Source of the DNA: Pirellulaceae bacterium
GTDB lineage: Bacteria > Planctomycetota > Planctomycetia > Pirellulales > Pirellulaceae
Assembly: GCA_030744095.1 (NCBI GenBank)
Contig: JASLRF010000106.1
Span: 1-7,642 of the forward strand
Reading direction: 5' to 3'
DNA: 7,642 nt
Shown: piece by piece, positions 1 to 7,642 of the stretch
How the letters are laid out: every line of letters starts with the position of its first letter
How positions within the stretch are numbered: position 1 is the first letter of the stretch
Program-made: the position numbers and the translations under genes
The notes under the pieces: generated by a model
Seen by the model: only the letters and a program-made list of their open reading frames with translations
Told to the model about the DNA's origin: nothing
Databases searched by the model: none

Positions 1-1
1 C

Positions 2-1345
2 TTGACCGGGCTTGCTCGGTCACAATTCGATCGTGGTCGGTTTCTCGAGGCCGCCCAAACAAGCTCGCGATTGTTGGCGCTCTCTCCGCCCCCACACGTG
101 GCAACCAACACGCTGCTTTTACAAGGCCGCGCGTTTGAGGCCGACGAACAGCCGAATGCTGCGCTGGCGAGCTACCAGCAGATCTACGAATACGACCCGA
201 TGTGCGAACCGGCGTCCTCGGCTCTGTTTGCCGCGGCGCGCATCCTGGCAGATCAAGGACATCGCCAGCAAGCTTGTGAGCGGCTGGAGCAGCTTGTCCG
301 GCAGGACGCTGTGTTCGAGCAACGAGACGGCGCGCTCTATCAACTCGCGTGGCTGCTGTTGGAAACTGGCGACCAAACTCAAGCCGATCTTCGGTTCGTG
401 CAGCTCGTCAAAGAACATCAGCGTAGCCCGTTGTGGGTCGACGCGATGTTTCGTCTTGCCCGAAATGCCGCCGAACGAAATGACGTGACACAGGCAAACT
501 ATTGGCTCGACGAACTGCTGTTCGGCGTGGCACGCAATTCGACTCGTGACCATCAGAGACCACACGACACGCAACGCGATTCCACCACAACTACGACCGA
601 CATCAGCCGGATTGTCTGTCACGCACTTTATCTGCAAGGCAAGCTTGCCGTCGATGCGGGAGAGTGGCTCGCGTCGTTGCGGAGTTACCAGCGCATCGTC
701 GAAGAATACCCACAATCTGATCTGGCGAGTGCCGCATCGTTCTGGTCGGCGGAATCGCAATTCCATCTGGCCCATTACGAGCAGGCTGACGCGATGTTGG
801 CACAACAACAATTCACGGCAACCGATTCACACAAGGAATATCAGGCGATGATTCCCTTGCGTCGCGCCCAGATCGCCGTGCACCGCCGAAAATGGGCGGA
901 CGCATTGGAGATGGCGCAAGGAATTCGCGACCGATTTCCAGATTTCAGTTTGCAGTTCGAGGTGGACTACTTGATCGGACGTTGCCTGCACAGCCAGGCC
1001 CATTTTTCCATGGCCAGGCAATCATTCCGCCGAGTAATCGACGCGCCCCAGGCGCGGCGTACCGAGACTGCCGCCATGGCGCAGTGGATGATCGGCGAGA
1101 CGTATTTTCATCAATCAAACTACAACGACGCGATCCGTGCCTATTACCGGGTCGATGCACTCTACGCTCTGCCTCGGTGGCAAGCGGCGGCGCTATTGCA
1201 GGCTGCCAAGTGCCATGAACTGAATGATCAATGGAAGGAAGCTCAGCAGCTCTATTCGCAATTGCGCAGCGACTATCCAGAAAGTCGATTTGCCGCCGAG
1301 GCGATGCGGCGTCTGCGAATCGCGACAAAGAACCGCGCAGAGTAG
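2..1345 (+). CDS. Tetratricopeptide-repeat protein, C-terminal part (5' end outside window)
   Basis: The frame is open from the first bases of the window to a TAG at 1343-1345, so this is the C-terminal ~447 residues of a longer protein; the TTG at base 2 is not a credible start. The chain is built of about ten helix-turn-helix repeats in two blocks (roughly residues 1-176 and 206-440). They carry TPR-like signatures such as Y-Q-R-I-V-E-E-Y-P-Q-S (239-249) and Y-S-Q-L-R-S-D-Y-P-E-S (418-428), close to the YbgF/CpoB and BamD style of TPR found beside Tol-Pal genes. A hydrophilic Thr/Asp/His-rich insert (about 179-201) separates the blocks. No catalytic motif is visible. The exbB-like gene starts 39 bases downstream, so co-transcription is likely. 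I infer a periplasmic or outer-membrane scaffold serving the ExbB/ExbD complex. The TPR fold is secure; the partner and location are guesses, because any signal peptide lies outside the window. Confidence 0.85.
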   Translation: MTGLARSQFDRGRFLEAAQTSSRLLALSPPPHVATNTLLLQGRAFEADEQPNAALASYQQIYEYDPMCEPASSALFAAARILADQGHRQQACERLEQLVRQDAVFEQRDGALYQLAWLLLETGDQTQADLRFVQLVKEHQRSPLWVDAMFRLARNAAERNDVTQANYWLDELLFGVARNSTRDHQRPHDTQRDSTTTTTDISRIVCHALYLQGKLAVDAGEWLASLRSYQRIVEEYPQSDLASAASFWSAESQFHLAHYEQADAMLAQQQFTATDSHKEYQAMIPLRRAQIAVHRRKWADALEMAQGIRDRFPDFSLQFEVDYLIGRCLHSQAHFSMARQSFRRVIDAPQARRTETAAMAQWMIGETYFHQSNYNDAIRAYYRVDALYALPRWQAAALLQAAKCHELNDQWKEAQQLYSQLRSDYPESRFAAEAMRRLRIATKNRAE

Positions 1346-1384
1346 CGATCGAAACCTGTGACGTATTAGAAAGTTGAGGAATCC

Positions 1385-2308
1385 ATGTGGACGCGATCAC
1401 TGATCCCCGAGAGGGATAAGCCAATAATGTGCACCGGGCGATGCAGGCACTCGAATCGCCTACGCCGAGGACCATGCACCGTGATGTCAAGAGTATGTCT
1501 GGGCATGGTGTTCTGCGGTCTGCTGTACGCGCCCTGGGTTTCCGCTCAGGTGCCCGATCCGCCGTCCAATGTCACAACCTCGGCAGCCGCCACTGAGCAA
1601 CTCGCGGTGCCGTTGGCTGCAGAGAATCCCATCCCCACCAAAAGCCTGCTGCAAGTGATTCGAGACGGTGGGCCGTTGATGCTGCCGATCGCGTTCTGTT
1701 CGTTCGTTCTGTTGGTCTTCGTATTTGAACGCGCCATTAGCTTGCGACGCGGCCGCGTAATACCAGGGCCGTTTGTCCGCAAATTCATCGAACAGCTACG
1801 TACCAAACAGCTTGATCGGGAAACGGCCTTAGAACGGTGTGAAAAGAATCGCAGTCCGGTCTCGGATGTCTTTGCGGCCGCCATCAATAAGTGGGGCCGA
1901 CCCGCCGTCGAAATCGAGCAGGCAATCATCGACGAAGGCGAGCGGATGACGCACGGCCTGAGGAAGTACATTCGTTTGTTCAATGGAATCTCGACCATCT
2001 GCCCATTGCTCGGGCTGCTGGGCACCGTGCTGGGGATGATTCGCGCCTTTAATTCCATCGCCACCGCGGATGCCATGGGGCGTCCCGAGTTGCTGGCGGC
2101 CGGGATTAGCCAGGCCTTGTTGACGACGGCGGCGGGACTCACCGTCGCGATTCCCGCACTGATCGCCTATCTGTTCTTCGTGGGCCGTGTCGACCGGCTG
2201 ATCATTGACATCGATACACTTGGTCAGAAAGTGGTCGGACTCATTTCTGCCGAGACACGAAACCGAGAAGGGGAACCAAAAACCAAATCTCGTACGAAAG
2301 CCGCATAG
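1385..2308 (+). CDS. exbB: ExbB/TolQ/MotA-family proton channel subunit
   Basis: This 307-residue protein is an inner-membrane ExbB/TolQ homologue, which pairs with ExbD to turn proton flow into mechanical work on a TonB-like partner. A signal-peptide-like stretch ends V-S-A|Q at about residue 54, followed by a short periplasmic segment. Membrane helix 1 is at about 96-118 and a cytoplasmic domain at about 119-200. Helix 2 (about 201-223, containing C-P-L-L-G-L-L-G-T-V-L-G-M) and helix 3 (about 241-266, containing T-T-A-A-G-L-T-V-A-I-P) carry the family signature. The tail is basic. The start at 1385 has GAGGA at 1376-1380 but gives an unusually long Arg-rich n-region. GTG 1481 or ATG 1484, with GAGGA at 1467-1471, would leave a compact normal signal peptide and is a serious alternative. 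A signal peptide before helix 1 is known in some ExbB variants. exbD follows 70 bases downstream. The family call is secure; the start is not. Confidence 0.93.
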   Translation: MWTRSLIPERDKPIMCTGRCRHSNRLRRGPCTVMSRVCLGMVFCGLLYAPWVSAQVPDPPSNVTTSAAATEQLAVPLAAENPIPTKSLLQVIRDGGPLMLPIAFCSFVLLVFVFERAISLRRGRVIPGPFVRKFIEQLRTKQLDRETALERCEKNRSPVSDVFAAAINKWGRPAVEIEQAIIDEGERMTHGLRKYIRLFNGISTICPLLGLLGTVLGMIRAFNSIATADAMGRPELLAAGISQALLTTAAGLTVAIPALIAYLFFVGRVDRLIIDIDTLGQKVVGLISAETRNREGEPKTKSRTKAA

Positions 2309-2378
2309 CATGACCAGGCAGGGGCCGGGACATCAGCCGATGGATTGCCAGCCTTGCCAGGGAAGGATGTGAAAGACG

Positions 2379-2804
2379 ATGCCGATAAAGACAACTCAAT
2401 CCGACGAACAACCGTCGCTGAATCTGACTCCCATGATCGACGTGGTGTTCTTGCTCATCATTTTTTTCATGGCTGGTACCAAGTTCACAGAACTGGAGCG
2501 GAAGATCGCGTTGCAGGTCCCGCAAGTCGCTGACTTGAAAGCGCTCTCGCCAGCACCAGAAAGACGCGTTATCAACGTTTACCGAGATGGCAGCATTTCG
2601 CTGGATCGGATGGAAGTGACGGTCGAACAGCTCGTCGAGCGGCTGTCGTCCGCCCGGGGCGAATACGCACAGCTGGGCGTGGTGGTACGCGGTGACGCAA
2701 CGGGTGAATTTCAGAACGTGGCGTCTGTGTTAGGTGCCTGCCGCCGCGCTGGGATTCAAGACATGGGCATCTCGGTGCGTTTGGCGCAAAGGGAAACACG
2801 GTGA
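2379..2804 (+). CDS. exbD: ExbD/TolR-family biopolymer transport protein
   Basis: This 141-residue protein has ExbD architecture: a short cytoplasmic N-terminus, one membrane helix (about 18-34), and a periplasmic domain (about 45-141). The helix opens with N-L-T-P-M-I-D-V-V-F. Asp21 in it matches the conserved proton-translocating aspartate of ExbD and TolR, so the protein is likely active. The periplasmic part has the usual family pattern, including I-N-V-Y-R-D-G at 65-71, V-V-V-R-G-D at 101-106 and an amphipathic helix to about 125. Length is normal. The ATG at 2379 is preceded by GGAAGGA at 2361-2367, a somewhat long 11-base spacing, and lies just upstream of the membrane helix. It follows exbB by 70 bases on the same strand. 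ExbD and TolR cannot be told apart from sequence alone; the absence of Pal or TolB genes here favours neither. Confidence 0.94.
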   Translation: MPIKTTQSDEQPSLNLTPMIDVVFLLIIFFMAGTKFTELERKIALQVPQVADLKALSPAPERRVINVYRDGSISLDRMEVTVEQLVERLSSARGEYAQLGVVVRGDATGEFQNVASVLGACRRAGIQDMGISVRLAQRETR

Positions 2805-2897
2805 TCGGGTTAGTGGAGACATTTTGGATCAGAACCTTCAGGACCGAGCAAGCTAGTGCTCTATCAAGACCAAGAATTAGGGTTGTCGAGCCTGATT

Positions 2898-2949
2898 GTC
2901 GTGGTTCGCTCTGCGAACGAAACGCTTTGGTTGCGGAGCGATCAACGAC
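2898..2949. repeat. Imperfect inverted repeat, REP-like
   Basis: Two 22-base arms (2898-2919 and 2928-2949) flank an 8-base loop. Sixteen of 22 positions are complementary, including GTCGT/ACGAC at the base and TCGCTC/GAGCGA in the middle. Three of the six mismatches would be G-U wobbles in RNA. The motif of opposed 'CGCTC' and 'GAGCG' resembles intergenic palindromes that recur in planctomycete genomes; that resemblance is from memory and was not checked here. Confidence 0.55.
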
Positions 2950-3044
2950 TATCTCGCCAGACGACCATTCTTCTTCAACCCTAAAATCAAAAATTGACAC
3001 AGCACGTGTATCAGCTCTGCCTTTACAAATGAGTCGAGTTTTCA

Positions 3045-3127
3045 GCGACGGGCACCTACCGCAGGTGGGTCGCGGAGCGAGTTGCCACTACCGAGCGATA
3101 GCTCGTATCGGTCAGAGGCACCGCCTC
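3045..3127. repeat. Cluster of three short perfect hairpins
   Basis: Three stem-loops follow each other. CACCT/AGGTG (3053-3057, 3063-3067) has a 5-base loop and an outer GCGAC/GTCGC pair (3045-3049, 3069-3073). CGAGC/GCTCG (3092-3096, 3101-3105) has a GATA loop. GAGGC/GCCTC (3115-3119, 3123-3127) has a 3-base loop. They end 52 bases before the start codon of the fusion gene and could fold in its leader RNA. Function is unknown; no T-tract follows any of them, so they are not intrinsic terminators. Confidence 0.5.
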
Positions 3128-3179
3128 ACGAGCCATTGAGCGAGTGTAGCACGCTTGCGGCAACGTCGAGATAAGAAGC

Positions 3180-5195
3180 ATGAACGCAATCATCCTGGTC
3201 GGTAGCCTCGGAGACGCCTGGTTGTCGGCTCGTACCTTGGGGCTGATGTTGTGGGGCGGTCTGGCCGTCCTCACATTGGCACTGTTGATCGTGACTCGGA
3301 CTCGCTGGGGACACGCGCAGCCGCTTTCAAAATGCGTCGTGCTTTCCGTGTTCGCGCACGTGCTGTTCATGGGGTACGCCTACGGTACCAAACTGATATT
3401 TGATGCGGGACACCAGACGCGGGAAGAGGTTATGCAATTGGCAGTGATTGCCGCGGACCGCGATACGAAGTTCACGCAAGCTCCTGCCGACGCACTGCAA
3501 CCATGGGACCGTCTCGCGAGCGAAGCGGCCAGCCCAGCCGAGATTGAAGCGCCTGAGCGTTTGCTGACCAGTTTTCAAGAACCAACCACGGCGATCACCG
3601 TGACGAAGCCGAATTTCGAGTCGCCCCCCGCGCCACAAGATATCGAAACTCCCGAACCAGAGCGACCACTTCCCGCAGCGGCGCCCGTTGAAACGTCCCC
3701 GCTGATGCCCGCTGAAATCCCGAAGGTGGAGATTGATTCGACCAGCGACGAACCGTCCGTAGTTGCGACGCCCAATGCTCGGCCGGAACCGACTGGGCCA
3801 GAATTGCCACGAGCGGTGGTCGACCAAAGTCCAACGCCCAACGATTCCACCGATTCGCCACGACACGACGAAGTCGGTCCCGACGGCCAGCAAATCCAGC
3901 GTCTGATCGACGTACCCATCGAAGCAGATTCTGCGCAGACTGCCCGTGGAGCGTTCGACCAAATGGAAGCCACCGACAACGCAGCGGATTTGCAAAACAA
4001 CGCGGCGCCGATTTCTGTGATTCAGGACGGAACTCCCGTGCCGCTGGTTGAAGCAACGGTTATGCCAACCCCGGTTGTCGCGGGCCCAGCTCGACGTCGT
4101 CCCGGAGATGGCCTGCCAGTCCCCAAGCTCTATCAGATGCGCAACCCTGAGAATCGACTTCGTATGGCACAACAGTTTGGTGGAAACGAGCATTCCGAAG
4201 GCGCGGTTGATGATGCGCTGTCATGGCTTGCGTCCGCACAATCGGCCGACGGCCGCTGGGATGCAAACCAATTTGACGGCGGTATTGAATCCCAGACGTT
4301 GGGTCACGATCGCCAAGCCGCCGGTACGGACGCAGACACGGGGATCACGGGGCTTGTGCTGTTGGCCTTCCTGGCGGCCGGGCATACGCACCTGGAGGGC
4401 ACGTACCGAGAGAACGTCCAACATGGCCTCGAGTTTCTTTTGCGAAGCCAGGCCGATAACGGAAACCTGTATGGCGATGCGAGACTCTTCGCCAGGATGT
4501 ACTGTCATGGGATTGCCGCCTTGGCGCTCGGCGAAGCGTACGTCATGACGGGCGACCATCGCTTAATGCCATTTCTCGTACAAGCCACACGGTATATCCG
4601 CAACTCACAGCATCCTTCGCTCGGCGGCTGGCGATATCAGCCTGGGGACGAAGGGGACATGAGTCAGTTCGGTTGGCAAGTCATGGCGCTTCGCAGCGCC
4701 GAACTTGCCGGTATCGAAATTCCGAGTGAGACGCGCGACGGTATGCTGCGTTTTTTGCGACGAGCACGTACCGGACCGCATGGTGGATTGGCCGCCTATC
4801 GTGCCGGCGAGCGTCCGTCCCGGACGATGACCGCCGAAGCCATGGCGTGCCGTTATTTTCTGCGCATGACACCGACACAAGCAAGCGTCGACGAAGCGAC
4901 GGACCTGATCCACCGCGAGTTGCCTGGGACGGGTCGAGTGAATCTCTACTACTGGTACTATGCGACGCTGACTTTGTTTCACGGTCAGGACCCTGATTGG
5001 GAGCGATGGAACGAAGCCCTGCAGGACCAACTCCTTAGTTCGCAACGCCGCCACGGGCAACTCGGCGGCAGTTGGGACCCAGATACCGTTTGGGGCGGGT
5101 ACGGCGGTAGGGTGTACAGTACGGCCATGGGGGCACTGTGTTTGGAGGTCTACTACCGGTATTTGCCGTTGTTTGATGAAGCGGCTAAACCATAA
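3180..5195 (+). CDS. TonB-like membrane transducer fused to a prenyltransferase/squalene-cyclase-like toroid
   Basis: The protein has 671 residues. Membrane helix 1 (about 19-38) is followed by a basic loop T-R-T-R-W-G-H that should be cytoplasmic. Helix 2 (about 51-73) contains S56-V-F-A-H60, the Ser-x3-His arrangement of the TonB membrane helix that contacts ExbB/ExbD. Residues about 75-340 form a Pro/Glu/Ala/Thr-rich linker, as expected for a periplasm-spanning rod. Residues about 343-661 form an alpha/alpha-toroid of the prenyltransferase/squalene-oxidase repeat type: Q-S-A-D-G-R-W (354-360) is a QW-like motif, and there are Gly-Gly-Trp (482-484) and Gly-Gly-Ser-Trp (629-632) turns. The cyclase D-x-D-D motif is absent; D-A-D-T-G (384-388) is the nearest match. 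No thioester motif is present. It lies downstream of exbB-exbD on the same strand. Planctomycete proteins of this toroid type are usually annotated only as 'prenyltransferase/squalene oxidase repeat-containing'. ATG 3180 has only a weak AAGAAG upstream. The toroid is secure; the TonB-like role is inference. Confidence 0.88.
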   Translation: MNAIILVGSLGDAWLSARTLGLMLWGGLAVLTLALLIVTRTRWGHAQPLSKCVVLSVFAHVLFMGYAYGTKLIFDAGHQTREEVMQLAVIAADRDTKFTQAPADALQPWDRLASEAASPAEIEAPERLLTSFQEPTTAITVTKPNFESPPAPQDIETPEPERPLPAAAPVETSPLMPAEIPKVEIDSTSDEPSVVATPNARPEPTGPELPRAVVDQSPTPNDSTDSPRHDEVGPDGQQIQRLIDVPIEADSAQTARGAFDQMEATDNAADLQNNAAPISVIQDGTPVPLVEATVMPTPVVAGPARRRPGDGLPVPKLYQMRNPENRLRMAQQFGGNEHSEGAVDDALSWLASAQSADGRWDANQFDGGIESQTLGHDRQAAGTDADTGITGLVLLAFLAAGHTHLEGTYRENVQHGLEFLLRSQADNGNLYGDARLFARMYCHGIAALALGEAYVMTGDHRLMPFLVQATRYIRNSQHPSLGGWRYQPGDEGDMSQFGWQVMALRSAELAGIEIPSETRDGMLRFLRRARTGPHGGLAAYRAGERPSRTMTAEAMACRYFLRMTPTQASVDEATDLIHRELPGTGRVNLYYWYYATLTLFHGQDPDWERWNEALQDQLLSSQRRHGQLGGSWDPDTVWGGYGGRVYSTAMGALCLEVYYRYLPLFDEAAKP

Positions 5196-5597
5196 TCACC
5201 CCTGAAACAGTGACTGTACTGCCCAAGCGGAACCGTACTGTGGTACTGTCCGTCGTGATGTGTCGCTGCCTTTGGCACGTCTGGCACAACCGTCACACTC
5301 TTTGTGAAATGGCTGGGACTTGACCACTTCAGCTCCTACTCACACGGGTCAGACTGCGCAAGCTTTGTCTATCAAGTGGCTTATGTGGTTGGCGATGTTG
5401 CCTGCAAAGCCCCATTTGTGTTTGACAAGCGGAACGCTGGCGTTAGAATTGAGAGCAACAGAGGGTACGTTTGTGCGGAAGTGCAAACAGCGCGCACGTT
5501 GGTTCTGGAGACGCCCTTCCAGGGAAGTTTCCCGCTTTCGCCGGTCGATTGCGTGCTAGTGCCCAACATCCCACCTTTTAGTGCGAGAGCGTTTACC
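5196..5597 (+). other. Intergenic region and leader of the tat unit
   Basis: No gene is supported in these 402 bases. A frame in phase with tatA is open from 5304, but its translation is Cys/Ser-rich, unrelated to TatA, and overlaps a strong promoter (5422-5449). The first part holds three copies of GTACTG (5216-5221, 5235-5240, 5243-5248) and a short ACAGT/ACTGT dyad (5208-5218), which might be operator sites. No clear terminator for the upstream operon is visible. From the promoter, a leader of roughly 140 bases would precede tatA. Confidence 0.6.
5422..5449 (+). promoter_or_regulatory. Sigma70-type promoter of the tat unit
   Basis: A perfect TTGACA (5422-5427) and TAGAAT (5444-5449, five of six consensus bases) are separated by 16 bases. 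Transcription would start near 5456 and give a leader of about 140 bases. It is the best-matching housekeeping promoter I found in the window. Its position inside the open frame upstream of tatA supports translation starting at 5598, not 5304. Confidence 0.7.
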
Positions 5598-5816
5598 ATG
5601 TTGATGTCCAATGCAGTTCTGTTCGGCTTCTTCGGAATGCCAGGTCACATCGAACTTCTGATTATCGCAGGAATCGCGGTTCTTTTCTTTGGCCACCGGT
5701 TGCCAAGTGTGATGCGCTCGATGGGTCGAGGTGTCGTCGAATTCAAGAAGGGTGTACAGGGAATCGAAGACGAATTGGATTCGGCCATCGATGAAAAGCC
5801 CAGCAAGGACGCTTAG
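5598..5816 (+). CDS. tatA: Sec-independent (twin-arginine) translocase subunit TatA
   Basis: The 72-residue product is a typical short TatA, which oligomerises in the inner membrane to let folded proteins with twin-arginine signals cross. A short N-terminus (F-G-F-F-G-M-P-G) leads into a membrane helix at about 18-31. The hinge is F31-G32, followed by R-L-P and an amphipathic helix with G-R-G-V-V-E-F-K-K-G (43-52), the family hallmark. The tail is short, acidic and polar. ATG 5598 is chosen because TatA homology begins just after it and GAGAG lies at 5585-5589. ATG 5604 is nearly as good. The frame is open back to 5304, but those 98 extra residues do not resemble TatA and contain the promoter. 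A second tat gene starts 104 bases downstream. No tatC is in the window; it may be elsewhere. Confidence 0.9.
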   Translation: MLMSNAVLFGFFGMPGHIELLIIAGIAVLFFGHRLPSVMRSMGRGVVEFKKGVQGIEDELDSAIDEKPSKDA

Positions 5817-5848
5817 GTCTTTGGTCTCGATGATCGTCTCTAATCGAA

Positions 5849-5879
5849 TGCAATCCGCTTACAGCAGGCGGCCATTGCA
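5849..5879 (+). promoter_or_regulatory. Bulged hairpin between the two tat genes
   Basis: TGCAATCCGC (5849-5858) pairs with GCGG (5868-5871) and ATTGCA (5874-5879), giving a 10-pair stem with a two-base CC bulge and a 9-base loop. No T-tract follows, so it is not a normal terminator. It could stabilise or process the mRNA and set the relative amounts of the two Tat proteins. Structure is read by eye only. Confidence 0.45.
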
Positions 5880-5920
5880 CCCTGCCACGAAGAACCACCC
5901 TGCATGAGAGAACTCCCATC

Positions 5921-6226
5921 ATGTTTGGACTAGGATTTCAAGAATTGGCCTTGGTCGGCGTTGTCGCCGTCCTTCTGTTTGGCAAACGACTACCGGAAGT
6001 CGCCCGTTCACTGGGCAAGAGCTACCACGAATTCCGCAGCGGTCTGACAGATATCCAGTCGACCTTCGACTACACGAACATGGGCAGCACGTCAAAGCCT
6101 TCCTATTCGAGTTCACAAAGCGACTACGACGACCACGACGAACCGACCGCGCCGAAATTCGAGCCGCCGCCGGCGGAACCACAAATCCCGACGGGCGACA
6201 TCCCGAAACCGGTATCGGAGAAATAG
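5921..6226 (+). CDS. tatA: Second TatA/TatB-like twin-arginine translocase subunit
   Basis: The product has 101 residues. Its N-terminus (M-F-G-L-G-F-Q-E-L) runs directly into a membrane helix (about 8-20). A hinge F20-G21-K-R-L-P and an amphipathic helix with A-R-S-L-G-K-S-Y-H-E-F-R-S-G (28-41) follow. These are TatA-family features: the F-G hinge favours TatA, while Glu8 in the helix is a position also used by TatB, so a TatB-like role is possible. The region from about 50 to 101 is Ser/Tyr-rich, then acidic (D-Y-D-D-H-D-E), then proline-rich, and probably disordered. ATG 5921 has GAGAG at 5906-5910. It sits 104 bases after the first tatA and probably shares its transcript. The paralogues differ strongly outside the core, so this is not a recent duplication. 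Confidence 0.88.
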   Translation: MFGLGFQELALVGVVAVLLFGKRLPEVARSLGKSYHEFRSGLTDIQSTFDYTNMGSTSKPSYSSSQSDYDDHDEPTAPKFEPPPAEPQIPTGDIPKPVSEK

Positions 6227-6258
6227 GTCACGTTTTTCCAACCGCAATTCACAACAGG

Positions 6259-6306
6259 CAAGGGCTGAACAGAATTCGCCTCAGCGCGGCTTCTATTCAG
6301 CCCTTG
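6259..6306 (+). terminator. Large stem-loop, probable terminator of the tat unit
   Basis: CAAGGGCTGAA (6259-6269) is perfectly complementary to TTCAGCCCTTG (6296-6306), with two further pairs after one mismatch and a 20-base loop. A short TTTT run (6312-6315) follows 5 bases later. It lies 32 bases after the second tat gene and before the tRNA. The weak and displaced T-run makes it a likely but not perfect intrinsic terminator. Confidence 0.55.
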
Positions 6307-6346
6307 TCAGGTTTTGTACATTGGTGATTCGACAAATTGAATCGAA

Positions 6347-6420
6347 GGGCGTTTAGCTCAGTTGGTTAGAGCGCTGTGTTCACACCGCAGAGGTCACTGG
6401 TTCGAATCCAGTAACGCCCA
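6347..6420 (+). tRNA. tRNA-Val (anticodon CAC)
   Basis: The full cloverleaf can be drawn. The acceptor stem is GGGCGTT/AACGCCC (6347-6353, 6413-6419). The D stem is GCTC/GAGC (6356-6359, 6369-6372). The anticodon stem is CTGTG/CGCAG with one G-T pair (6374-6378, 6386-6390). The 7-base loop TTCACAC places anticodon CAC at 6381-6383. The T arm is ACTGG-TTCGAAT-CCAGT (6396-6412), and A6420 is the discriminator. CAC reads the valine codon GTG. The 3' CCA is not encoded, so it must be added after transcription. No other tRNA is adjacent. Confidence 0.96.
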
Positions 6421-6441
6421 CTGCTGTTAAAGTGTTTAAAT

Positions 6442-6478
6442 AAAAGGACTTGCAAATTGACGCGTGCAAGTCCTTTTT
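6442..6478 (+). terminator. Intrinsic terminator of the tRNA gene
   Basis: AAAAGGACTTGCA (6442-6454) and TGCAAGTCCTTTT (6465-6477) form a perfect 13-pair stem with a 10-base loop, ending in a run of five T (6474-6478). It starts 21 bases after the tRNA. Because the stem begins with an A-run, it could also stop transcription coming from the right on the minus strand. Confidence 0.88.
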
Positions 6479-6481
6479 CTG

Positions 6482-6505
6482 TTGGTGATACCTTTGGTGA
6501 TACCT
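6482..6505. repeat. Perfect 12-base tandem duplication
   Basis: TTGGTGATACCT occurs twice head to tail (6482-6493 and 6494-6505), four bases after the tRNA terminator. No function is evident; it could be a replication-slippage product or a paired protein-binding site. Confidence 0.8.
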
Positions 6506-6659
6506 TTCTGTTGATCCTTGGTACAGTCCACCCCCGTCGTGACGTGCCCCTGTGCCAAGGTCTCACCACATTCACTTCGCAGGGCAAGTCAGTCAAACCA
6601 ACTGTCTCCATCCTGATAAAGGGCGACCGTTCAAAATGTGGCAAAACCCAAGCAACAAG

Positions 6660-6674
6660 CCCCGGCCGCAGGGG
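6660..6674 (-). terminator. Weak GC hairpin downstream of the small minus-strand gene
   Basis: CCCC (6660-6663) and GGGG (6671-6674) flank a 7-base GC-rich loop, 18 bases beyond the stop codon of the minus-strand gene. The following minus-strand bases are only moderately T-rich (GTTTT near 6641-6646). It is a possible but weak terminator. Confidence 0.25.
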
Positions 6675-6692
6675 TTGATGCGTTGGCATTTC

Positions 6693-7007
6693 TCACCCGT
6701 CGCTCGACCTCTGCTTAATCCGCTTCTCGGCTTCCTTCTTCACCTCAGCCAGTTTGCTCTCCGCCTCCTTCGCGAGTTTCGATAGGTGGGCAACGGCTTC
6801 GATTGCGTAGTCACAAAGCTCTAGAATCTTGTCGAGATCACCAGCAGCTCTGAACCCGAACTCGATCGCCGGTATCCCGTCTCGGTCGAACCATGATTCA
6901 TCATAGCGACGAAGCCATTTATCCGTGTGCTTGTTCAGTTCGTCGATGGCCTGAGCCACGGTCGGTTGCTTGGTTGGGCGACGTCCTGGGTATTGGCTTC
7001 TGCTCAT
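6693..7007 (-). CDS. Small helical protein of unknown function
   Basis: The protein has 104 residues and I do not recognise its family. ATG 7007 is strongly supported: AAGGAG at 7020-7015 sits 7 bases upstream, the best Shine-Dalgarno in the window. The frame stays open to 7184, but the extra 59 residues are Trp/Arg/Ser-rich, look non-coding and would ignore this site. The N-terminus (2-15) is basic and polar. Residues about 16-35 (T-V-A-Q-A-I-D-E-L-N-K-H) are helical. A central segment with D-E-S-W-F-D-R-D-G-I-P-A-I-E-F-G-F (36-52) looks globular. Residues about 55-100 form long helices, the last one (A-K-E-A-E-S-K-L-A-E-V-K-K-E-A-E) rich in alternating Lys/Glu and likely a coiled coil. There is no signal peptide or membrane helix, so it is probably cytoplasmic. 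An inverted repeat lies just upstream (7039-7057). It appears to be a single-gene unit with no plausible partner nearby. Confidence 0.7.
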   Translation of the reverse strand: MSRSQYPGRRPTKQPTVAQAIDELNKHTDKWLRRYDESWFDRDGIPAIEFGFRAAGDLDKILELCDYAIEAVAHLSKLAKEAESKLAEVKKEAEKRIKQRSSDG

Positions 7008-7038
7008 GTCTGGTCTCCTTGCTCTGAGTGGTTGTGAT

Positions 7039-7057
7039 GACCGTTTTCGCCACGGTC
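7039..7057. promoter_or_regulatory. Inverted repeat upstream of the small minus-strand gene
   Basis: GACCGT (7039-7044) and ACGGTC (7052-7057) are perfect 6-base inverted arms around a 7-base spacer. They lie 31 bases upstream of the start codon at 7007. The position fits an operator or a leader hairpin; there is no evidence for which protein would bind. Confidence 0.4.
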
Positions 7058-7242
7058 GTTTCGATACCCACTGAGCGAGAGCGATCAGCCAGGAGGGCCA
7101 AGAATTCCAGGAAATTTTGAGTCGTCCAGGAACGGCGTACGAAATCACAACAGAGTGTCTGCTCGAATTCCCCGTGACGAACACGATTTCAAGCCAAACT
7201 GCCCAGCCAGACAGGAATCGAGCACGGGGCTAAGTCATTCGG

Positions 7243-7256
7243 ACGGAACGTTCCGT
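7243..7256. repeat. Perfect 14-base palindrome
   Basis: ACGGAACGTTCCGT reads the same on both strands. With no loop it suits a dimeric DNA-binding protein better than an RNA hairpin. It sits 57 bases beyond the hydrolase stop codon. Function is unknown. Confidence 0.6.
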
Positions 7257-7313
7257 TGAGTCCCGACCATGGGTCCGCATTTGAATAGAGCTGATTGTTC
7301 ACTGGCCACTTTC

Positions 7314-7642
7314 CTACTGCTTCTTCATCAGTCCTCGGCTCCGCATCCACTCTTCACAACGCTGCGGCCATGTCGATGCAGGATGCTCTGACGGCCTCAA
7401 GCCGAAGCCATGCCCTCCGCTGGCGTAGATGTGTAGCTCTGCTGGCACTTTGGCCTTCTTCAGTGCCAAATACATCGTGATGCTGTTCTCTGAACTGATC
7501 CGATCGTCACTGGCATGAGCAAAGAACGTCGGTGGCGAGTCCGCCGTGACGCGGATCTCTGGAGCCAGTCCGTCACCCTCCGTCAGATACGCCGGATAGA
7601 CCAGCACGGCGAAGTCTGGGCGGCAGTTGACGTCGTCAATCT
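7314..7642 (-). CDS. Alpha/beta hydrolase, C-terminal part (5' end outside window)
   Basis: The minus-strand frame enters from the right edge and ends with TAG at 7316-7314, leaving about 109 C-terminal residues. The GTG at 7607 is not the start, because homologous sequence (D-D-V-N-C-R-P-D-F-A before V-L-V-Y-P-A-Y-L) continues to the edge. The fragment has the last third of an alpha/beta-hydrolase fold: a beta strand V-L-V-Y-P, then P-T-F-F-A-H-A-S-D-D-R-I, whose Asp is the likely catalytic acid, then L-H-I-Y-A-S-G-G-H-G-F-G, whose His is the likely catalytic base. The nucleophile Ser would lie outside the window. This pattern matches the acetyl-esterase/BD-FAE-like enzymes, which deacylate carbohydrates and are abundant in polysaccharide-degrading planctomycetes. 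Fold confidence is high; substrate is a guess. Location cannot be judged without the N-terminus. Confidence 0.88.
   Translation of the reverse strand, partial: IDDVNCRPDFAVLVYPAYLTEGDGLAPEIRVTADSPPTFFAHASDDRISSENSITMYLALKKAKVPAELHIYASGGHGFGLRPSEHPASTWPQRCEEWMRSRGLMKKQ

Follow-up and report, generated by a model that had tools for sequence, protein, structure and literature searches.

In TonB and TolA, a membrane helix with a Ser-x3-His motif is followed by a motor box (PMC12204202), a Pro-rich linker and a C-terminal domain, and the proteins are served by the ExbB/ExbD and TolQ/TolR motors. TonB-headed transducers with von Willebrand factor A (vWA) ends were reported by Williams-Jones et al. 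in 2025, and their loci in the Planctomycetes-Verrucomicrobia-Chlamydiae (PVC) group are described as containing TPR, tolQ-like and paired tolR-like genes (PMC12204202). We report here a locus of this general kind with a different end domain, found in a 7,642-nucleotide stretch of DNA from a Pirellulaceae bacterium (GenBank assembly GCA_030744095.1, contig JASLRF010000106.1, positions 1 to 7,642; hereafter the window). An open reading frame (ORF) at positions 3180..5195 of the + strand, supported by homologues, encodes a 671-amino-acid protein with a TonB-like head and a C-terminal alpha/alpha toroid. Judged from its sequence, this protein is very probably a Ton/Tol-type force transducer that is driven by ExbB/ExbD and has the toroid as its end effector. 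A TonB-like arm ending in a toroid points to an undescribed motor-driven envelope job in planctomycetes.

The protein resembles TonB and TolA in its Ser-x3-His membrane helix, Pro-rich linker and motor-box-like strand and in its co-encoded ExbB/ExbD (TolQ/TolR) pair, which retains the pore Thr and Asp residues. Unlike TonB and TolA, it possesses an additional helix before the TonB-like helix and a toroid in place of the C-terminal domain, and no TonB_C or TolA match was found in it with Pfam at E ≤ 1. The vWA transducers are the nearest published precedent. As in those systems, a TonB-like head and a linker are joined to an unrelated globular end, motor and TPR genes lie upstream, and the organism belongs to the PVC group; in addition, three toroid proteins bear a YfbK-type vWA domain. 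In contrast to the vWA loci, the end domain is an alpha/alpha toroid and exbD is single rather than paired, and Pfam detected no VWA domain in the window protein. Neither "squalene" nor "toroid" appears in the main text of PMC12204202, and "Planctomycet", "toroid", "vWA" and "squalene" are all missing from the available part of a 2026 review of Ton/Tol motors (PMC12905483). No description of a toroid-ended transducer was recognised in a literature search of titles and abstract beginnings, with bioRxiv and most subscription journals outside its scope. The toroid would be the second non-canonical end domain, after vWA, among proposed motor-driven transducers.

An AlphaFold2 (AF2) model of the protein was built from alignment A1, whose 87 rows are the window protein together with 60 of 63 complete loci and 26 of 120 listed homologues (both sets are described below). 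The model has a mean predicted local distance difference test (pLDDT) score of 75.7 and a predicted template modelling score of 0.63. It places membrane helix 1 at residues 17-40 (3228..3299; all features of the protein are on the + strand) and membrane helix 2, the equivalent of the TonB helix by model and motif conservation, at residues 48-74 (3321..3401), both with block pLDDT values of 70-86 except at the end. Helix 1 is followed in the sequence by an Arg/Lys-bearing loop, from which its topology is probably N-out/loop-in. Helix 2 carries the conserved motif Ser56-x3-His60 (S56-V-F-A-H60, 3345..3359). A Pro/Ala/Glu-rich disordered linker recognised by model and composition (residues 76-322, 3405..4145; pLDDT mostly about 50 or below) leads to the modelled toroid (residues 323-666, 4146..5177; pLDDT mostly 94-99). 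The linker of about 247 residues contains 15% Pro, 8.5% Glu and 13.4% Ala, with Pro and Glu together making up 23.5% versus 9% in the toroid. An earlier note on this DNA had described exbB and exbD upstream on the same strand, a membrane helix with S56-V-F-A-H60, a Pro/Glu-rich linker of about 270 residues and a toroid replacing the TonB domain. Matches to PF01618 and PF02472, the motif at its stated position and the modelled toroid with no TonB_C match bear out the first, second and last of these; the linker is indeed rich in Pro and Glu, but it is shorter than claimed and contains more Ala than Glu.

The ExbB/TolQ-type motor subunit is encoded at 1385..2308 (+ strand; PF01618, E = 7.5e-28; likely start at 1484), and the ExbD/TolR-type subunit is encoded at 2379..2804 (+ strand; PF02472, E = 1.5e-24). 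Homologue searches found 912 proteins, of which 120 were listed; seven full-length relatives have identities of 64-96% and many relatives have identities of 35-50%, and the closest among the matches listed comes from a Pirellulaceae metagenome-assembled genome and shares 96% identity. Seventy related genome loci were retrieved, and 7 with a contig start inside the gene were dropped, leaving 63 with a complete 5' end. ExbD lies directly upstream of the toroid gene in 63/63 of these loci, with the tblastn match ending 5 to 293 bases 5' of the chosen toroid start codon, and ExbB precedes ExbD in 62/63, the contig of locus L012 beginning too near to judge. A TPR gene is present in 52/63 loci; the contigs of L012, L033 and L047 end before it. 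The minimal unit is exbB-exbD-toroid. Conservation of Ser56 and His60, which the earlier note had set beforehand as a test, was found: His60 is kept in 63/63 complete loci and Ser56 in 60/63, with Ala in L054, L062 and L065. The linkage to exbB/exbD that it had proposed likewise extends across genomes. In addition, Ser-x3-His is present in all 120 listed homologues.

Ser106, Thr214, Thr248 and Pro257 of the window ExbB correspond to Ser34, Thr148, Thr181 and Pro190 of E. coli ExbB, and Asp21 of the window ExbD aligns with the membrane Asp of E. coli ExbD. Among the partner ExbBs of the window and 62 loci (one a partial match), the Ser34 equivalent is kept in 62/62 sequences having a letter there, and the Thr148, Thr181 and Pro190 equivalents are kept in 63/63. 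The earlier note had placed the docking of helix 2 on ExbD Asp21. This site is incorrect, for Ser16 and His20 of E. coli TonB touch Ser34 and Trp38 on the outer face of ExbB, and Trp38 is in contact with Pro190 (PMC12215075). In the mechanism that we propose, helix 2 would use His60 and Ser56 to dock on the outer face of its partner ExbB pentamer, and a short strand past helix 2 would probably pair with the periplasmic domain of ExbD in the manner of a motor box. The Pro-rich linker would cross the periplasm, and proton flow via ExbB/ExbD would pull or turn the toroid, which would grip an envelope partner.

The strand in question is VMQLAVIAA (residues 84-92, 3429..3455, identified by pattern count), and the strand-like patch lies about 25 residues past His60. 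A motor-box-like pattern was present in 63/87 A1 sequences versus 21/522 other linker windows; the test is a simple sequence pattern without structure, which detects E. coli TonB. The resemblance can be seen by comparing L012 (SIRVTLVSSDAE) with E. coli TonB (PISVTMVTPADL). The A1 profile also gave a weak match with E. coli TolA over the head and linker (E = 0.015), which may reflect composition and was not counted. The transducer half of the protein is well supported by sequence: in the Pirellulales set, the head, the motor-box-like strand, the linker and a strict operon linkage can all be read from the sequences.

The toroid is a single alpha/alpha domain with a fold like that of squalene-hopene cyclase and QW-type repeats. 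In this it resembles squalene-hopene and single-domain class II terpene cyclases, and the protein could be taken for a membrane-anchored toroid enzyme (a terpene cyclase, a prenyltransferase or a sugar enzyme) whose head is a mere anchor and whose exbB and exbD are only operon neighbours. The strongly conserved toroid residues (among them D386, Y441, H443, D493, S495, W499, Y590, Y593, R644 and T648), polar or aromatic side chains that would line a predicted pocket, look like an active site as well, and D493-x-S495 is present in 87/87 A1 toroids. The DxDD motif defines the catalytic site of squalene-hopene and class II terpene cyclases, and an Asp-x-Cys ... His arrangement forms the zinc site of protein prenyltransferase beta subunits. 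None of the corresponding motifs is conserved: DxDD occurs in 5/87 A1 toroids, near the C-terminal end (and, at any position, in 15/99 paralogue toroids), DxC occurs anywhere in 15/87, and the thioester motif CxEQ occurs in 0/87. A terpene cyclase, a prenyltransferase and a thioester-domain enzyme were therefore rejected. Unlike terpene cyclases, the window protein carries one domain on a membrane arm, and a bare anchor would hardly account for so strict a Ser-x3-His motif and ExbD adjacency, so that an anchored enzyme is improbable.

The earlier note had suggested that the motor-driven toroid perhaps moves or loads lipids, polyprenyl or hopanoid-like molecules, or an envelope partner. The sequences do not support lipid chemistry because no DxDD, DxC or thioester motif is conserved, and sugar enzymes match the toroid fold almost as well as cyclases do; we consider a motor-driven lipid, polyprenyl or hopanoid carrier unlikely. 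A fold search matched the toroid with terpene cyclases, sugar epimerases, GH76 enzymes and AprG, and it cannot tell the function of the toroid because these varied enzyme folds all match. A sequence search of the PDB with the single window protein gave one match, at E = 0.9. Paralogues commonly carry the name "prenyltransferase/squalene oxidase repeat" or that of a hypothetical protein. The force-transducer reading suggests that some "squalene/prenyltransferase repeat" proteins may have a mechanical function and not be lipid enzymes.

The TonB-like head, the motor-box-like strand and the linker would also suit a variant of TonB in which the toroid passes energy to TonB-dependent receptors. The distribution of receptors among 59 planctomycete genomes makes this very improbable. 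Plug was found in 46/59 genomes and TonB_C in 47/59 (46 with both, 12 with neither and 1 with a weak TonB_C only), so canonical TonB tracks the receptors, whereas toroids persist in 12/12 genomes lacking both, with 1 to 15 toroid matches and 2 to 7 ExbD matches each. An S/A-x3-H helix was seen in at least one of the toroids read in 9 of these genomes; the one toroid read in genome G031 had none, and G002 and G026, with one toroid match each, stood outside this count. A role in serving receptors was rejected on this co-occurrence and the lack of a TonB_C match in the protein, and the earlier note's view of a function apart from TonB-dependent receptors agrees with it. The canonical TonBs of the same genomes have S-x3-H within the first 160 amino acids in 18/20 fetched sequences. 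The joint absence of TonB and its receptors from Rhodopirellula baltica and other planctomycetes was reported in a 2012 survey (PMC3422733).

ExbD-type matches occur in 59/59 genomes, with 1 to 15 in each, and TolB_N was found in 1/59 and was not found in Blastopirellula marina (B. marina). Together with the 12/59 genomes lacking Plug and TonB_C, this raises the question of what planctomycete proton motors drive, to which the toroid family would offer a concrete answer. What the toroid does is the least certain part of the force-transducer reading. We tentatively suggest Tol-like envelope maintenance, in which the toroid may grip the TPR protein, peptidoglycan or an outer-membrane component, and such a role is favoured over receptor-driven import. 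The rarity of TolB_N hints at it, as do the match of the window TPR protein with the YbgF model (above its cut-off, with a score summed over generic repeats), the TolQ/TolR models being the best-scoring NCBIfam models for the window ExbB/ExbD, and the PD40 repeats described below. Against it, all of these TolQ/TolR scores fall under the cut-off, and phmmer places the window ExbD closer to solved ExbD than to TolR. A broader proposal is doubtful though conceivable: the toroid-ended ExbBD transducer would replace the TolA/TolB half of Tol-Pal, headed toroids would share the same motors, and the toroid would be the main end effector of the phylum driven by the proton motive force, independent of TonB-dependent receptors.

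The toroid family spans the whole phylum and is not one gene. A profile of the window protein matched in 58/59 planctomycete genomes, often repeatedly and up to 23 times per genome, these counts being lower bounds (up to 20 candidates were scored per genome). A survey of 84 regions, four from B. marina and 80 picked from the strongest listed matches, provided 102 toroid ORFs. The membrane segment ahead of the toroid has Ser-x3-His in 70/102 (leaving out one false match, L153 at 104); further heads recognised by eye have Ala-x3-His (9) or Leu-x3-His (1), giving 80/102 with S/A/L-x3-H, and the other 22 have no such His (signal-peptide-like, no membrane segment, or other). As controls, S-x3-H was counted in 39/2013 membrane segments of other ORFs of at least 200 amino acids in the same regions, some of which will not be genes, and in 5/174 ORFs with a single N-terminal membrane segment. 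The Fisher p values (~6e-77 and ~5e-34, respectively) are indicative only because the rows are related. Chance or artefact was rejected on the linkage, the Ser-x3-His enrichment and the motor-box counts. The planctomycete paralogues share the toroid and mostly the S/A/L-x3-H helix with the window protein; unlike it, most are not beside exbD (92/102, with ExbD just upstream in 10/102), have shorter linkers (median 120 amino acids among orphan toroids) and lack the motor-box pattern. The Ser/Ala-x3-His helix is the sole feature by which a transducer role might be extended to the orphan toroids. A 112-toroid tree contained 21 toroids tagged as motor-linked (10 survey toroids and 11 A1 rows, three of these rows being of unseen neighbourhood), and 19 of them fell into one clade with a support of 0.909; linkage is seen in three lineages, since L080 and L180 lie outside this main clade. 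The same-strand neighbours of the surveyed toroids are mixed, with PPIC/SurA-type families as the main recurrence (at most 5 of the 58 scanned out of 77; ExbD, toroid-bearing, short and near-duplicate ORFs were left out by eye).

Several observations weigh against the force-transducer reading. The analysis as a whole consists of sequence comparison and single-chain modelling, and relatedness inflates its statistics. Unlike in TonB/TolA, the Leu and Ser of the SHLS motif (described in the Tol review PMC8928145) are absent, their positions being A67 and K71 in the window protein; these positions vary also in 17 extracted planctomycete TonB heads. The partner ExbBs have no Trp38 equivalent, the position being mostly V/L/C/M/T; the Trp is also missing from all five further B. 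marina ExbB paralogues that keep Pro190, four of which retain the Ser (four diverged paralogues, too different to judge, are excluded). The motor-box pattern misses E. coli TolA, is found in 3/9 surveyed linked toroids with a head and occurs in orphan toroids no more often than in control windows (4/72 versus 18/268). No TPR gene was found in 8/60 testable loci, four of which were inspected ORF by ORF, and the TPR protein is therefore a non-obligate partner. In L080, L112 and L113, ExbD is adjacent and no ExbB was found in the region. Finally, L180 is motor-linked yet lacks the membrane His; this exception to the head rule is possibly a cytoplasm-sensing variant.

The L180 protein (L180:4799-7570) combines an FHA domain, one His-less membrane helix and a toroid, with exbB and exbD upstream. 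Other domain combinations were observed in the survey. The toroid is fused with a vWF_A/VWA/YfbK_C module in L190:5401-8532, L123:8155-10902 and L153:104-2833; in L190, both the toroid and the vWA domain follow an Ala-x3-His helix, the only TonB-like head among the three, and L123 and L153 lack a head of this kind and score lower for the toroid (130 and 159 bits). In L133, the toroid is fused with a VIT-VWA module. PD40 propeller repeats, a type also found in TolB, are present in the motor-linked proteins L115:3612-7418, L184:3345-7025, L185:6038-10132 and L186:2188-6348, in which they come after the first membrane helix and before the later ones, preceding the S/A-x3-H helix, and the toroid is C-terminal. 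HEAT repeats are present in the toroid proteins L116, L117, L140, L171, L174 and L179.

The gene order on the + strand of the window is TPR, exbB, exbD, toroid protein and two tatA-like genes. The TPR protein (2..1345, + strand; TIGR02795, 128.3 bits summed over repeats, cut-off 90.1) is truncated at the window edge, and its full length in B. marina is 984 amino acids. An unusually long stretch of 375 bases (2805-3179) separates exbD from the toroid gene and holds GGTTGCGGAGCGA at 2929 and a 92% copy of it at 3068. The tatA-like pair lies 3' of the toroid gene (5304-5816 and 5921-6226, + strand), followed by a tRNA gene at 6347-6420 (Rfam RF00005, 71.1 bits). In 25/63 relatives, TatA-like matches were found no more than 4 kb from the toroid gene, in 19 of them downstream on the same strand, and the N-terminus of a headless B. 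marina toroid, L078, resembles a Tat signal by eye.
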